A stretch of 64,000 nucleotides of DNA from Sulfurimonas sp. HSL1-2 (GTDB lineage: Bacteria; Campylobacterota; Campylobacteria; Campylobacterales; Sulfurimonadaceae), in assembly GCF_039645565.1 (NCBI RefSeq), contig NZ_CP147914.1, positions 803,573 through 867,572 of the forward strand. The letters are read 5' to 3'. The position numbers and the translations under genes are program-made. A model generated the notes under the pieces. The model had not been told where the DNA came from. It searched no databases and was given only the letters and a program-made list of their open reading frames with translations. Positions 55,052-61,092 of this stretch are shown one piece after another. Positions within the stretch are counted from its first letter, which is position 1, and each line of letters begins with the position of its first letter.

Positions 55052-56416
55052 GTGAACCGTCTTGTTGCCGTGATGCTGACCTTGGGAGTGATAGGGGGGT
55101 GCACACTGCTGGACGGAAAAGAGATTTCCTCTTCGGCGACCGGCCTGCCCGGAAGCCTTACCCTCAAACAATCCTTTATCGTGCGGCAGCTCGACAACGG
55201 CGCTACCTACCCGGATACCCCCTATATCCTGACACTGAGCGAAGGGAATTACGAGGAGGGATCGTACCGCATCGACGGCGGGCTTCTGCTCTACAAAGGG
55301 CATGACGGCAGCGGCGTGACTCTCAACCAGGCGGCCCTGGTCTACTGGGGGGACGATTTCGACGTCAGAATCGGCAAATTCGTATCCAAAACGGGGGTAC
55401 TGGACTATCTGAGCGGGTTGGATACCCTCAACCCGGTACGGGTGGACTTTTTCGACGACACGAATATCAATCTCCGCAGGATACCCCAGTGGATGGCGGA
55501 GCTCTCCTACTTCGTCGGGAATGCCTCCCTGGTCAGGGTGACCGTCCAGCCCTACGACGGGCGCACACAGAGCTACCTCTCGACCTATGTGGGGTTTCTG
55601 CTTGACAGCTATCTCCCCGCCTATTTCGAAGAACTCAGCCGTAACAGCGCAGAAGGGGCAGCGGTCTACCAGGAGGTTTTCCTCCCGTTGTACCGTGACA
55701 GTATCAGTCCTGCGCTCAAAAGTGATATCGATTCACAATACAATGAACGTGCCCTGGCCATCGGGAAAAGCACGTTTCAGGCACTTTTTGAGCGCAGCAG
55801 CGATGGGGCGACGTTCGGTGCCGCTTGGACGAACCGCTATTCGGAAGTGCCCTATATCCGGGTTGACGAGCAGCTGCTGGCGGTGATCGACGCGCTTGCG
55901 GACGGCGAAAGTACCGGGGAAGCACTCAGAGCCTACCTGGATCAGCCGGACCTCAATCCCATCAAGGGGGTCAGAGGCTTTCGGTATAACCAGTTTGCCC
56001 TGTATGCCGAGGGGACGGTCAATAGTTACGGCGTTCGCGCCGAAGCGAGCGTACGCGACAGGGTACCGGTACTCAACAGCTTTACACCGCTTACCATGCT
56101 CGGTTTCGGATTGGATCGCCAGGCCGGGGATGCCTACTTCGACCTGGAAGTACAGTGGGGCTATCTCAAACAGTACCGCGAGAGTGTGTTGGCGACGATG
56201 CTGCTGAACAGGTTTGATCTGGCCGTGTACCGGGGCGTGGCCGTACGCTTCGACCATTACCTGATCACGGGGTGGTATGCGGGCAATGCCACCGCCGTGA
56301 TGCTCCCGAACCTTGTGTTGAGCCGGGGTGCCTTTGAGGTCGACCTTCACGCCCTTTACCACTCGGACGACAAAGCGTACAACACCCTCGGGTTCACGCT
56401 AAGGGCGACCTTTTGA
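55052..56416 (+). CDS. Outer-membrane barrel-like lipoprotein (DUF1302-like)
   Basis: A 454-residue exported protein with a signal peptide and lipobox VIGGC (Cys17). The body is rich in alternating aromatic/hydrophobic residues as in outer-membrane barrels, ends in a Phe (LGFTLRATF), and contains VYWGDDFDVRIGKFVSKTG, similar to the strand-turn motif of DUF1302-type barrels that accompany RND lipid pumps. The identification is by pattern and context: the next gene is an MMPL/RND protein. The GTG at 55052 begins the signal peptide; a GTG at 55040 is an alternative. Its TGA overlaps the TTG start of the RND gene. Confidence 0.6.
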   Translation: MNRLVAVMLTLGVIGGCTLLDGKEISSSATGLPGSLTLKQSFIVRQLDNGATYPDTPYILTLSEGNYEEGSYRIDGGLLLYKGHDGSGVTLNQAALVYWGDDFDVRIGKFVSKTGVLDYLSGLDTLNPVRVDFFDDTNINLRRIPQWMAELSYFVGNASLVRVTVQPYDGRTQSYLSTYVGFLLDSYLPAYFEELSRNSAEGAAVYQEVFLPLYRDSISPALKSDIDSQYNERALAIGKSTFQALFERSSDGATFGAAWTNRYSEVPYIRVDEQLLAVIDALADGESTGEALRAYLDQPDLNPIKGVRGFRYNQFALYAEGTVNSYGVRAEASVRDRVPVLNSFTPLTMLGFGLDRQAGDAYFDLEVQWGYLKQYRESVLATMLLNRFDLAVYRGVAVRFDHYLITGWYAGNATAVMLPNLVLSRGAFEVDLHALYHSDDKAYNTLGFTLRATF

Positions 56417-58257
56417 AGCTCGCGCAGAAAACGGGTGTGCTGCTGATACTGCTGCTGTTCGGCGCTGTCCTGATGCGGCAGGTTGAGGTCCGTACGGTGG
56501 ATTGGAGCCGTTTTTTTCCAGGTACGCCTGCTTCTGCGGTGCAGCAGCAGTGGTTCACGCCGGACCGGCAGTATCTTTTTACGGCACTCCCAGAGGAGTC
56601 GCCCCTACCCGTATGGCGTTCGGATGGGCTGATCACGGATTATTACCGCCTTGACGCCCAGGGACTCTACCTGATCACATTCAGCCGGGAAAACCAGAAT
56701 ACCATCCTCGAAAGGGTTGGGGCCTATCCGCACAGCGGCACCGCCGTCGTCGGCGCGCTGCTGTTGCAGGGCTTTTTCGATGACATGGTGTTTTATGTCT
56801 CTGCGATAGCCCCGTTCCTGCTTCTGCTGCTTTGGCTGTTGACATCGCTGGAATACCTGCTGAACATTCTGATCGAGATCGGGGCGTTTACGGTATCGCT
56901 GCTTGCTGTTTTGGTGGCCGTCGGAGTCGCCGTCGATCCCGCGGCACTGTTGGCGGTCGTTTTTCTCGTCATTTATGCGTTGACCCTTTTCAACTATCTT
57001 CATTCGGGGGAGATCAGCAAACATCAGCTGGCATTCGGCATTACCCTTTCGGTCGCCACGACCGCATTGAGCAGTCTCTTCCTCTATGGGTCTGAGTTTG
57101 GGCTCATCAGCACTTTCGGGAAGATGATGCTGCTCGGGCTCGGGGTGCTTTACGGCTATCTCATCGGCCGGATCTATCTGTTTGGGCCGGTGCGTTTCGT
57201 GTTCGGCTGGCGCAGGCGGTGGCAGGCAGAGGGTGCCTGGTTGAAAAAGGGGATGCTGCTTCTCGGCACTGCTGCCGTCGCCTGCGGTTTCGTCTGCGCA
57301 AAAACACCTTCGATAGATCTGAACCCTCTGAATCTTATGCAGCCGACAATGGCGATGTACAAGCGCATTGCGGCATTTGAGTCCGACTATCTGCCGACGC
57401 TGCCTTTTGTCGTCCGTTTACATGCGAAGCAGGGCGACTTTTCCGATGTCGAAAAGGCCCGGGCACTCGCCGGAGTGATGCAGCGCATTACCGAAGCGGT
57501 CCCCGGGAGGCTGCTTGGGAGCCTTCCGATGGGGTATGAGCGTTTTGCAGACGCACCGCTCGTTGATGCGACGCCCGATGCCTATGCCCAGTACCTGCTC
57601 GCCATGGAGTGGCTCGACGGCGGCCTGCCGCTGCTGAGCCCGGATCAGCGCGACACCTACATGACGCTGAGCATTCCGATCACGACCCCTTCGTATGCCA
57701 TCACCGCCATGGTCAAACGGCTCCGGGCGATCGGTGAGGCCTCGGACGATTTCTCGGTCAGTGTTCTGGGCAAGATCGCCGACTTTGAACATTTTTTGAA
57801 ACGGTTCGCCGGGGAGTTCTTTGCCGGTGTCGGCATCTCACTCGGTTTTGTCGTGCTCTTTTTTCTTTTTTACTGCCGGACATGGAAGAGTGTCATCGTC
57901 CTTGTGTCCCCGCTGCTTTCGCTCCTTCTGCTTGTGGGTGTGCACCGTCTTTTTGGGATGGACCTCACCATGATCACCCTGCTTGGCACCGTGTTGTTCG
58001 TCGGGCTGGTCACCGATTCGGTCATCCATCTCTTCATCTGTATCAAGCAGCAGGGACATGCGTGCATCGGCAGCGTCCTCCATCCGATCATCGTTTCGAA
58101 TATGACGATGCTGATCGGGCTGGCCGGGATGCTGTTCGGCGGCACGATGATTCGTCAGTTCGGCTTGGAGCTGGGGAGCCTGCTCGCGGCAAACCTTGCC
58201 GTCGTGGTCTACCTGCTGCCCATACTGCTGAAGCGCTACTTCACCCGCTGCGGGTGA
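56413..58257 (+). CDS. MMPL/RND-family transporter (reduced periplasmic loops)
   Basis: A 614-residue inner-membrane protein with 12 predicted transmembrane segments in the RND order: one N-terminal helix, a short periplasmic domain, a bundle of about five, a second periplasmic domain, then five more. The TDSVIHLFICIKQQG block near residues 535-549 resembles the conserved acidic segment of MMPL proteins. It is shorter than typical MMPL pumps (750-900 residues), as the periplasmic loops are small. Members move lipids or hydrophobic molecules. The start is TTG at 56413, overlapping the upstream stop. Confidence 0.78.
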   Translation: MKLAQKTGVLLILLLFGAVLMRQVEVRTVDWSRFFPGTPASAVQQQWFTPDRQYLFTALPEESPLPVWRSDGLITDYYRLDAQGLYLITFSRENQNTILERVGAYPHSGTAVVGALLLQGFFDDMVFYVSAIAPFLLLLLWLLTSLEYLLNILIEIGAFTVSLLAVLVAVGVAVDPAALLAVVFLVIYALTLFNYLHSGEISKHQLAFGITLSVATTALSSLFLYGSEFGLISTFGKMMLLGLGVLYGYLIGRIYLFGPVRFVFGWRRRWQAEGAWLKKGMLLLGTAAVACGFVCAKTPSIDLNPLNLMQPTMAMYKRIAAFESDYLPTLPFVVRLHAKQGDFSDVEKARALAGVMQRITEAVPGRLLGSLPMGYERFADAPLVDATPDAYAQYLLAMEWLDGGLPLLSPDQRDTYMTLSIPITTPSYAITAMVKRLRAIGEASDDFSVSVLGKIADFEHFLKRFAGEFFAGVGISLGFVVLFFLFYCRTWKSVIVLVSPLLSLLLLVGVHRLFGMDLTMITLLGTVLFVGLVTDSVIHLFICIKQQGHACIGSVLHPIIVSNMTMLIGLAGMLFGGTMIRQFGLELGSLLAANLAVVVYLLPILLKRYFTRCG

Positions 58258-58260
58258 AGT
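58238..58260. terminator. Hairpin at the convergent ends of the MMPL and LolA-like genes
   Basis: ACTTCACCCGC-T-GCGGGTGAAGT is a perfect 11-bp inverted repeat over the stop codons of both converging genes. It has no T-tract, so it may serve as a bidirectional mRNA end or pause. Confidence 0.5.
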
Positions 58261-58991
58261 CAGAAGGCGCAGCGGTGAAGACGGTTGTGATAAAAAAGCC
58301 CCTGTTGGATATCGCGCGAGACGCTTTGGGTGTCAACCCTGTAGGTCAGTGTCCGCGACTTGATGAGGTCGTTGACCTGCCAGCGGGTAATGAGCAGCTG
58401 TTCATCAAAGCGGTCTACTTCGTCGATATTGACGATCCGCTGCAGCTGAGCGCCTTTGAAAATCTCGACTTTTCTGATCACGGAGGTCACGGGGTCGATG
58501 TAGTAGACCGAGCGGTTCCCGTTTCGCTTCAGCGTCACCTTGTAACAGGCGCTGCCGTCAAACAGCGTTTCCTCCAGCGGTTCGAAGGTCCCTTTTTTCG
58601 CATCCAGTTCGGCGTAGGAGATCCCCATGCCGACGGCTTCGCTCTCCTCCTCCTGTTCGGGGATGATCCGCACGCGCTTCAGGGCTGGGAAATAGATGGC
58701 GTTGCTGCTGCTCTCCTCCTCCCGTTCGATGAGTATGGCCGTGCACTTGATGTTTTGCGGGGAGCGGAAGCGGATCAGGAGTGACGATGCGTCGCCCGTC
58801 TGCCGTTCGGCGACCATGAAAGAGCGTTCCTGACGGTTGCCCTCGTTTTCGACGGTCATCGCAACGTCGAAACGCAGGTTGCCGAACGAGAAGATTTTGG
58901 CGCTTTTCGCATAGATGGCTTCGGCGCTCTCCGAAGCGAACAGGCTGATTCCGGCCCAGGTCAGCAGGGCGGCTGTACGGTGCCACTGCAT
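58260..58991 (-). CDS. LolA-like outer-membrane lipoprotein-sorting protein
   Basis: A 243-residue periplasmic protein with a signal peptide ending near SLFASESAEA. The mature part shows the LolA/LolB-like half-barrel pattern: SLLIRFRSPQNIKCTAILIERE, IYFPALKRVRIIPEQE, GTFEPLEETLFDGSACYKVTLKR and YYIDPVTSVIRKVEIF. These match the COG2834 family often encoded beside MMPL pumps. It probably carries lipid or lipoprotein between membranes. ATG at 58991 sits one base after the Tat lipoprotein stop, so the two are cotranscribed; an upstream ATG at 59006 is possible but lacks a signal peptide start. Confidence 0.8.
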   Translation of the reverse strand: MQWHRTAALLTWAGISLFASESAEAIYAKSAKIFSFGNLRFDVAMTVENEGNRQERSFMVAERQTGDASSLLIRFRSPQNIKCTAILIEREEESSSNAIYFPALKRVRIIPEQEEESEAVGMGISYAELDAKKGTFEPLEETLFDGSACYKVTLKRNGNRSVYYIDPVTSVIRKVEIFKGAQLQRIVNIDEVDRFDEQLLITRWQVNDLIKSRTLTYRVDTQSVSRDIQQGLFYHNRLHRCAF

Positions 58992-58992
58992 G

Positions 58993-61092
58993 TCACACCG
59001 TCGCATTGGTATCTGCCGTCTGGCCGGTATGGCTGCCGACCCACTCCAGCGCGCTGAGGGTGATCTCGCGCAGGAGGCTCTGGTTCTCCAGCACCGCAAG
59101 GGCATACGCCTGCATGTTCGCCATCATCTGCTCCATCGTGCCCGCGACGACGGTGACGATCTGGTCCTCTGCCGCTGGCGTGTACCATTCGCGGTCGAGG
59201 ATGAGCGCCATCCCCGTCAGCATCAGGTTGGTGATCGTCTTCATCCCGTCATAGATCAGCAGCCCGAAATCGAGGATCAACATCTCCGTATAGACGATCA
59301 GCTGTTCGGTGTAGACGATCCGGTCCGCCATCTCGCCGATCCGGTCGGCCATCTGGCCGATCTGCACGGCCATCCAGAGGATCCGGTCGGCCATGACCCC
59401 CACCTCCTCGCCGCGGGAGGCGAAAAGGTAGCCGTACTCCATCCCTTTCATCGCGAACTGGTAGGCATCCTCCTCGATATCCATCGTAAAGCTGTAGGCG
59501 AGGTCGGCCATATGGGTGGCAAAGTCGTAGGCGTCGCTTGCCGTCTGGGCGGTAAAGCTGTAGGCGAGGTCCGCCAGGTGCGATGCAAAGGCAAAGGCAT
59601 CGGTTTCCGTCTGGGAGGCGAAATCGGCCGCCTGGGTCGAAAAGGTGACGGACATCGTGGCGATAAGGTCGAAGATGTCGCGCCAGGAGGCATTGCCGTC
59701 CAGAAGGTCACGGAGCTGATCGAAATAACCGGCGTTGTCCGTTGCAGAGAGGGTGCCTGTCGTCAACGCCCCCTGCATCTCACGGGTATAGACCGTGAAG
59801 GCATCCGTCTGCGGCAGGCCATCGGAACCGAAGAGGGTGACGAAGGTCTGGGCATCGCTCCCCACGGCAAACCCCTCCTGCACGACCCCCTCCGGCGTGA
59901 CCGCGTGCGCGCTCAGCATCGTGAAGAGCTGTCGTACTACGACGGAGATGACCGAGAGGGAAACGGAACGTTTTTTGAGGGTATCGATCGACGCCAGCTG
60001 CTCGGTGCTCAGCTTGTAGTGCTCGGTCGTAGGGTCATAGCCGTCCTGAAGCGACGCCAGCAGCACTTCGGTGTGCGTCTTTGTCGTACCGATGATCTCT
60101 CCGACGGCGCCGCCGACGGCCTTGAACATCAGCGTCACCAGGGCGCTTTGCACGGAAACCGATCCGAGGAACGCTTCCATCTGCAGGGTCTCATCGGGTG
60201 TCATCGTGCCGGTAGACGCAGGGGATGCCGCCGCCGCACCGGCTGAAGCCAGTTTATCGAGGGAAAAAAGCCCCATGAGGGCCACCGCCGCGATCGCCAT
60301 CTTTGCAAAGCTCAACAGGGTGTCGCTATTGCTTTCGAAGCTCAGATCGGCTGCCGTTTTTTCCGCAATGATCTTGAGCAGTTTGTCAATGGCGAAGTAG
60401 GTCAGGGTGGCGTAAAGGAGGGCTCGGGCGTCGTTGCTGTCAAAGAGGCTTTTGAGGTAGTTGAAAAAGCCGTTCATGGCGATCCGGATGGCATCGAAGA
60501 TATATTGGAGCGCATCGCCGGCCGCCGCTTTCAGTTTGGCGAGGAGGTTGTCGAAATCGCTGAATTCCGAGGGGGTGTCCGCCGCGGTACGATAATGCGC
60601 TGAAGCGACGGCAGCTGCCGGGGTACTCTGTGACGGTTCCTGCAGGCGGTTATTGTAGTCAAAAAGACGCATGGTCGCCAGCAGTTTGACATACTGGTGG
60701 CCGAACTGCTGGTGGGCGAGGCTGCCGTAGGTTTCGTATTTTCGCCACATCGATTCCGTCTCGTCGCTCTGGAAAAACAGCGCATTGAGCGGGGAGGAGG
60801 CCGGCAGGGTGGGAGCTGCCGCGGCGAAGAAACTGCTGATGTCGGCCGGGATGGGCTGGGCCGTTGTCAGTAATGGGGGGGTGTAGGTTCCCGTCAGGCT
60901 GCCCAGAAGGTTTTCGAACTCGGCCACGGTGCTGTCGTTCTGCATTTTGGCCGTTTGCAGCAGTGTGACACGCTCATCGATGGGGGAGAGCGCGGTGCCG
61001 CCGCCGGAACCGCCGCAGCCCGATAGGAGATTGATTGCAGGGAGCGAATAGAGCGCGATCGCGCTTGTAGAGAGAAACTTTCGTCTGTTCAT
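58993..61092 (-). CDS. Tat-type lipoprotein with helical 22-residue repeats
   Basis: Not recognised as a known family. The N-terminus MNRRKFLSTSAIALYSLPA has a Tat-like twin-arginine (RRKFL) and ends in a lipobox LLSGC (Cys26), so a folded lipoprotein is likely. A Gly-rich linker follows. The 699-residue product is largely helical. Residues about 465-540 contain repeats around DAFAFASHLADLAYSFTAQ and DAYDFATHMADLAYSFTMD, roughly 22 residues apart. A heptad-like segment IGQMADRIGEMADRIVYTEQ then follows. Such 11/22-residue repeats make extended amphipathic helices. The gene is directly upstream of the LolA-like gene. Confidence 0.65.
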   Translation of the reverse strand: MNRRKFLSTSAIALYSLPAINLLSGCGGSGGGTALSPIDERVTLLQTAKMQNDSTVAEFENLLGSLTGTYTPPLLTTAQPIPADISSFFAAAAPTLPASSPLNALFFQSDETESMWRKYETYGSLAHQQFGHQYVKLLATMRLFDYNNRLQEPSQSTPAAAVASAHYRTAADTPSEFSDFDNLLAKLKAAAGDALQYIFDAIRIAMNGFFNYLKSLFDSNDARALLYATLTYFAIDKLLKIIAEKTAADLSFESNSDTLLSFAKMAIAAVALMGLFSLDKLASAGAAAASPASTGTMTPDETLQMEAFLGSVSVQSALVTLMFKAVGGAVGEIIGTTKTHTEVLLASLQDGYDPTTEHYKLSTEQLASIDTLKKRSVSLSVISVVVRQLFTMLSAHAVTPEGVVQEGFAVGSDAQTFVTLFGSDGLPQTDAFTVYTREMQGALTTGTLSATDNAGYFDQLRDLLDGNASWRDIFDLIATMSVTFSTQAADFASQTETDAFAFASHLADLAYSFTAQTASDAYDFATHMADLAYSFTMDIEEDAYQFAMKGMEYGYLFASRGEEVGVMADRILWMAVQIGQMADRIGEMADRIVYTEQLIVYTEMLILDFGLLIYDGMKTITNLMLTGMALILDREWYTPAAEDQIVTVVAGTMEQMMANMQAYALAVLENQSLLREITLSALEWVGSHTGQTADTNATV

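Follow-up and report, generated by a model that had tools for sequence, protein, structure and literature searches.

Four genes of Sulfurimonas sp. HSL1-2, encoding a predicted outer-membrane barrel (P1), an RND-like pump (P2), a LolA-like periplasmic protein (P3) and a Tat-type lipoprotein of no named family (P4), form one co-inherited unit, and it appears probable that this unit is an Ame-type, RND-driven envelope transporter of a hydrophobic or amphiphilic substrate that employs P4 as a new fourth component. The genes lie in the window, as we refer here to the entire 64,000-nucleotide stretch of DNA that was analyzed, which is part of a 2.52-Mb single-contig genome. A first-pass annotation had placed a convergent four-gene cluster at 55052-61092, and all four open reading frames are indeed present there, with the following features (window coordinates):

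55052..56416, plus strand: P1, predicted outer-membrane beta-barrel of remote DUF1302 type, 454 aa, GTG start
56413..58257, plus strand: P2, short MMPL-like RND pump, 614 aa, TTG start
58015..58017, plus strand: Asp535 of P2, invariant acid in a TM10-like helix (10/10 sequences)
58260..58991, minus strand: P3, LolA_like periplasmic protein, 243 aa
58269..58271, minus strand: Cys241 of P3, invariant C-terminal cysteine (12/12 P3 sequences)
58993..61092, minus strand: P4, Tat-type lipoprotein of no named family, 699 aa
61015..61092, minus strand: Tat-type signal (RRKFLS), lipobox LLSGC and Gly-rich linker of P4
59398..59628, minus strand: eleven-residue repeats of P4, residues 489-565, seven units, DAYxFAxxxxx
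59251..59397, minus strand: seven-residue repeats of P4, residues 566-614, MADRIGE type
59173..59535, minus strand: P4 core, residues 520-640, 69-89% identity between phyla

The P1-P2 and P4-P3 pairs are arranged tail to tail. The genes for the barrel and the pump, which had been described as overlapping, share 4 bases, and the previously noted gap between the lipoprotein and LolA-like genes is, as reported, a single base. The complete convergent layout is intact in ten loci from Campylobacterota and the gammaproteobacterial Thiomicrospirales (the window, G006, G004, G039, G422, Sulfuricurvum L021, Thiomicrorhabdus L019, Thiotrichales L022, G459 at L103 and G486 at L104; L018 and L020, where contig ends cut the cluster, are outside this count), and the 4-base P1-P2 overlap is found in 11 of the 11 loci that hold both genes. 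Among the 397 Campylobacterota genomes scanned, P2 (strong matches, with E below 1e-230) and full-length P4 occur in the identical six genomes (6/6), the next-best P2 profile matches being ordinary RND pumps (E about 1e-14; 767-aa pumps in genomes match at E about 1e-13), and among 62 genomes from the order of Thiomicrorhabdus, P2 and P4 again occur in the identical five (5/5). Co-occurrence of the four genes, which the first-pass annotation had proposed as a check, is thus borne out. Full-length P4 homologs are encoded only beside P1-P3 and always adjoin P3; in the named genome collection, the P4 profile matches come from Sulfuricurvum, Sulfurimonas, Thiomicrorhabdus sp. 6S3-12 and a Thiotrichales bacterium, a distribution that is possibly undercounted given that the collection scans used short exact patterns. 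In each of the gene trees of P1, P2, P3 and P4, the sequences from Campylobacterota and those from gammaproteobacteria fall into two separate clades. Searches of viral contigs and phages yielded no relatives.

Several loci show local peculiarities. In one of the five genomes from the order of Thiomicrorhabdus (G473), the cluster is broken, with P4 divided between two frames, and the pieces lie on two contigs (L105:1-949 and L102:1495-2424) that both terminate in the same transposase-like sequence. In Sulfuricurvum-like genomes, two extra outer-membrane-type genes flank the cluster (L090:6423-8282, L021:5737-7629), the first of which overlaps P1 by 4 bases.

The family assignments of P1 and P2 are remote. 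For P1, PF06980 (DUF1302) matches one member of the alignment of homologs (A2; E=0.0018), and the P1 profile aligns with a 697-aa DUF1302-like barrel of another genome, G015, the gene for which neighbors that of an MMPL pump (hhalign 86%, E=4.7e-6). A DUF1302 search of the window's own genome gave no match, but as its control gave none either, this result carries no weight. The AlphaFold2 model of P1 (4 sequences, pLDDT 42) is too poor for a fold claim, which we dropped; when this weak model was compared with the PDB using Foldseek, nearly all of the 50 matches listed were outer-membrane barrels (best E=1.8e-3). P1 is thus probably an outer-membrane barrel of the DUF1302 type, if a distant one. 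The earlier description of this protein as an outer-membrane barrel lipoprotein holds for the barrel but not for the lipoprotein: the lipobox-type signal (window 55052-55105) is confined to the genus of the window, and the homologs elsewhere have no lipobox. With regard to P2, PF03176 (MMPL) matches one of its homologs (alignment A3; E=4.3e-4), and the window's own P2 has no Pfam match, scoring below the curated MMPL threshold. Its profile matches in the PDB are mostly RND pumps, including those of the AcrB type and HpnN (E=0.002-0.049), in agreement with the initial assignment to the MMPL/RND pumps. The transmembrane pattern suggests about 12 TM helices with small periplasmic domains, and P2 lacks the TM4 acid that the genome's canonical 764-aa pump has; given these two traits, proton coupling may be altered. 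P2 therefore is best viewed as a putative, divergent RND relative outside the curated MMPL membership.

The assignment of P3 is more direct, with a match to LolA_like (PF17131) at E=1.5e-16 (61 bits against a cut-off of 30) and profile matches to the PDB entries 3bk5 (E=7.7e-10) and 9tp6 (E=1.3e-8); the LolA model, as opposed to LolA_like, did not match P3. Furthermore, the partners of LolA in the Lol lipoprotein-sorting system are LolCDE and LolB, whereas P3 is accompanied by a barrel and an RND pump, which sets the cluster apart from that system. Taken together, the families of P1-P3 support the association of a barrel, an RND pump and a LolA-like protein that had been suggested for this cluster. 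The C-terminal Cys241, which lies outside the alignment with 3bk5, the chain of which stops just before this position, is missing from the two other LolA_like proteins compared (L097, L015) and, judging from these comparisons, appears to be a hallmark of the LolA-like protein of this system.

Could this cysteine betray the cargo? In principle, elemental sulfur or polysulfide might be transported, with a persulfide forming on the C-terminal cysteine of P3 and P4 coating or holding the hydrophobic sulfur. SoxY carries sulfur on its C-terminal arm, and every host of the full cluster for which a name is available belongs to a sulfur-oxidizing group. However, both host orders consist largely of sulfur oxidizers, so that the link between the hosts and sulfur is confounded; the cluster is present in just six of the 397 Campylobacterota genomes, no sulfur genes flank it, and the cysteine could serve other uses. 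Thus, we consider sulfur a quite unlikely cargo, notwithstanding the lack of experimental confirmation for the carrier that brings S0 across the envelope (PMC10045233).

Of the known systems, the closest is AmeABCD of Castellaniella defragrans, an HAE3 RND tetrapartite transporter that exports hydrophobic compounds and the deletion of which reduces monoterpene tolerance and increases the accumulation of Nile Red (PMC6394551). Like the cluster described here, it is a single conserved cassette that combines an outer-membrane protein (AmeA, of the DUF1302 family, to which P1 is a probable, remote counterpart), a LolA-superfamily protein (AmeB), an RND pump (AmeD) and a fourth partner. There are also differences: the fourth place is occupied by a COG4447 protein, AmeC, in one case and by the Tat helical lipoprotein P4 in the other; AmeB belongs to DUF1329 whereas P3 belongs to PF17131; P2, at 614 aa, is short and lacks the TM4 acid; and the four genes here form two convergent pairs without a surrounding catabolic island. 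Among the open reading frames around the loci, no AmeC/COG4447-type gene was recognized. Because no COG4447 component was found, P3 is of a different family and the pump is divergent, we regard the four-gene system as apparently Ame-like and yet do not file it as a member of AmeABCD. The first-pass annotation, which had singled out the cluster as a candidate for an undescribed system, overlooked this characterized relative (PMC6394551).

Three other systems invite comparison. In Thalassolituus oleivorans, an MMPL-LolA-like fusion (TOL_3187) is encoded beside a porin (TOL_3188) and is induced 42-fold on C28 alkane (PMC6304351); here again a pump, a LolA-like domain and an outer-membrane porin come together, but the pump and the LolA-like domain are fused, no P4 is reported, and there is a link to growth on alkanes. 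The genome of the window itself harbors a canonical trio (L097, G000:C1:264-269k) in which the same three kinds of proteins, MMPL pump, barrel and LolA_like, are adjacent, but this trio is one-directional, its 764-aa pump retains both TM acids, its LolA-like protein has no terminal cysteine and no P4 is found nearby; given that the genome possesses such an ordinary trio, the P4-bearing cluster is an addition rather than the house system. BstABC, the sterol transport proteins of Methylococcus capsulatus (PMC10942540), resemble our cluster in logic only, in that an RND inner-membrane protein works with periplasmic and outer-membrane-associated partners on a lipid; BstB is PhnD-like, BstC is a TRAP T-component, and neither a barrel nor a LolA_like protein is among the three.

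The family assignments, the fixed gene unit and the two precedents, AmeABCD and the Thalassolituus fusion, are the reasons why we favor an Ame-like conduit, and the existence of a second, separate type of locus in which the P4 core is paired with an MMPL pump counts in the same direction. In such a conduit, P2, presumably driven by protons, would extract a hydrophobic or amphiphilic cargo from the inner membrane, P3 would ferry it across the periplasm and P1 would serve as the outer-membrane gate; P4 would be exported in the folded state via Tat and anchored by its lipid, its helical rod holding or organizing the other parts or binding the cargo. The direction of transport, the substrate and the role of P4 are what we infer; the lipid export and the carrier or scaffold role of P4 put forward in the first-pass annotation are likewise conjectural. 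Among the open reading frames around the loci, no biosynthesis gene common to the flanks was found, so that nothing points to a lipid as the substrate, and neither was a common flanking gene of any other kind that would hint at one. Ame-type RND systems work with LolA-superfamily partners and do without a classical membrane-fusion protein, and it is the crossing of the periplasm by the cargo that is at issue; thanks to the striking conservation of its core, P4 could provide a good handle on the bridge between the pump and the barrel.

The outward direction deserves separate consideration: whether the related systems perform efflux or uptake is under debate, which counts against the outward reading. 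Conceivably, the barrel and the LolA-like protein import a hydrophobic compound from the environment while the pump loads or recycles the carrier, and both the induction of the Thalassolituus fusion and its porin neighbor in growth on the C28 alkane (PMC6304351) and the location of the AmeABCD cassette within a monoterpene catabolism island (PMC6394551) are compatible with such a scenario. RND pumps normally export, however, and wherever the host of the full cluster has a name, it is a chemolithoautotroph-type sulfur oxidizer, with no hydrocarbon pathway nearby. On balance, inward transport appears unlikely.

The fourth component of the proposed outward conduit is P4. It showed no significant match to any family in Pfam, NCBIfam or PHROG, so that the lack of a recognized family for this 699-residue protein, pointed out before, has withstood a family search. 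The RR motif of its signal is present in every homolog with a called N-terminus (the Sulfuricurvum protein at L021, as called, begins downstream of the motif), the lipobox cysteine is conserved in 10/10 homologs, and the genome of the window encodes TatC. Across the ten loci from two phyla, 95 of the 699 residues are invariant, with the majority falling within about 150 residues; the high identity of the core between phyla compares with 23-43% for the remainder of P4 and for P1-P3 (window versus distant loci). Since the four-fold degenerate sites are only 24-49% identical between distant loci, that is, near saturation, the core is under purifying selection, and recent transfer of DNA is ruled out as the cause of its conservation.

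The helical repeats previously discerned in P4 are far more regular than shuffled sequences: there are 26/70 identities at lag 11 in residues 486-566 (mean 6.1 and maximum 14 in 5000 shuffles) and 20/40 at lag 7 in residues 566-612 (mean 2.6 and maximum 10), the core switching from eleven-residue to seven-residue repeats. We take the core to be an undescribed, predicted helical domain that neither Pfam nor NCBIfam contains. For the repeats of P4, the hydrophobic moment has its maximum at 98.5 degrees, the angle expected for eleven-residue repeats, but does not rise above that of the shuffles, and we do not claim an amphipathic helix bound to a lipid surface. The AlphaFold2 model of P4 (8 sequences) is all helical with a pLDDT of 38, too poor for a fold claim, which was likewise dropped. 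Flk and DUF7162, to which P4 or its relatives showed weak Pfam matches, as well as perilipin for a small neighboring protein, fell below the cut-offs and were rejected.

Beyond full-length P4, the core recurs in other proteins and seems to belong to a wider, unannotated helical superfamily, a connection that had not been made in the first-pass annotation; family scans matched no named family to these relatives or to those sharing the MADRI repeat. In Sulfurimonas, relatives of the core that lack a signal peptide have an MMPL pump and an ABC-2 exporter as neighbors, joined in one genome by a barrel and a LolA_like gene; other relatives are cytoplasmic-looking gammaproteobacterial proteins away from pumps. 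Many small exported proteins, from Campylobacterota as well as from gammaproteobacteria, contain the shorter MADRI repeat, and so does a Tat-signal protein of the haloarchaeon Natribaculum, with 70-72% over 40 residues. Such relatives away from pumps, for instance beside trp genes or in haloarchaea, might be taken to indicate that P4 is a coiled-coil surface or scaffold protein acting in a different process and merely co-transcribed with P3; but full-length P4 always adjoins P3 and, in the 459 genomes of the two groups, is found only with P2, which makes this explanation highly improbable. Under a broader proposal, the core would be a new helical domain of exported bacterial and haloarchaeal proteins that builds a rod or coat whose interface is nearly fixed; in this RND system it would provide a carrier or bridge, anchored by a lipid, for a hydrophobic cargo that may be sulfur, and would differ from any known adaptor. 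We put this forward tentatively, as an idea that is unlikely to be correct.

Some of these relatives merit a brief description. The second type of locus (L023-L026 and L015, from Sulfurimonas and Sulfurimonadaceae) encodes a signal-less P4 core, an MMPL pump and small family-less proteins, joined in L023, L025 and L026 by an ABC-2 exporter, the ATPase of which has a long N-terminal extension. On the Natribaculum luteum plasmid NZ_CP095398.1, the Tat-signal protein (L121:3704-4189) terminates in the shared stretch MADRIGEMADRI..TEELIVETE, and a gammaproteobacterial protein (L116:8959-9618) seems to be homologous to it over most of its length. Elsewhere in the genome of the window (L009:7055-9424; G000:C1:1545054-1547423), two tandem signal-peptide proteins (397 and 388 aa) contain heptad repeats of the MADRI type; a MarR-MFP-RND-OMF efflux operon directly precedes their genes and nif genes follow downstream, and similar tandem pairs are present in other contexts in three further genomes (G031, G014, G021). 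Finally, a protein of 2341 aa that combines long Met-rich repeats with embedded MADRI units (L096:2987-10012) adjoins an NrfCD/polysulfide-reductase-like operon and an RTX-like ORF.
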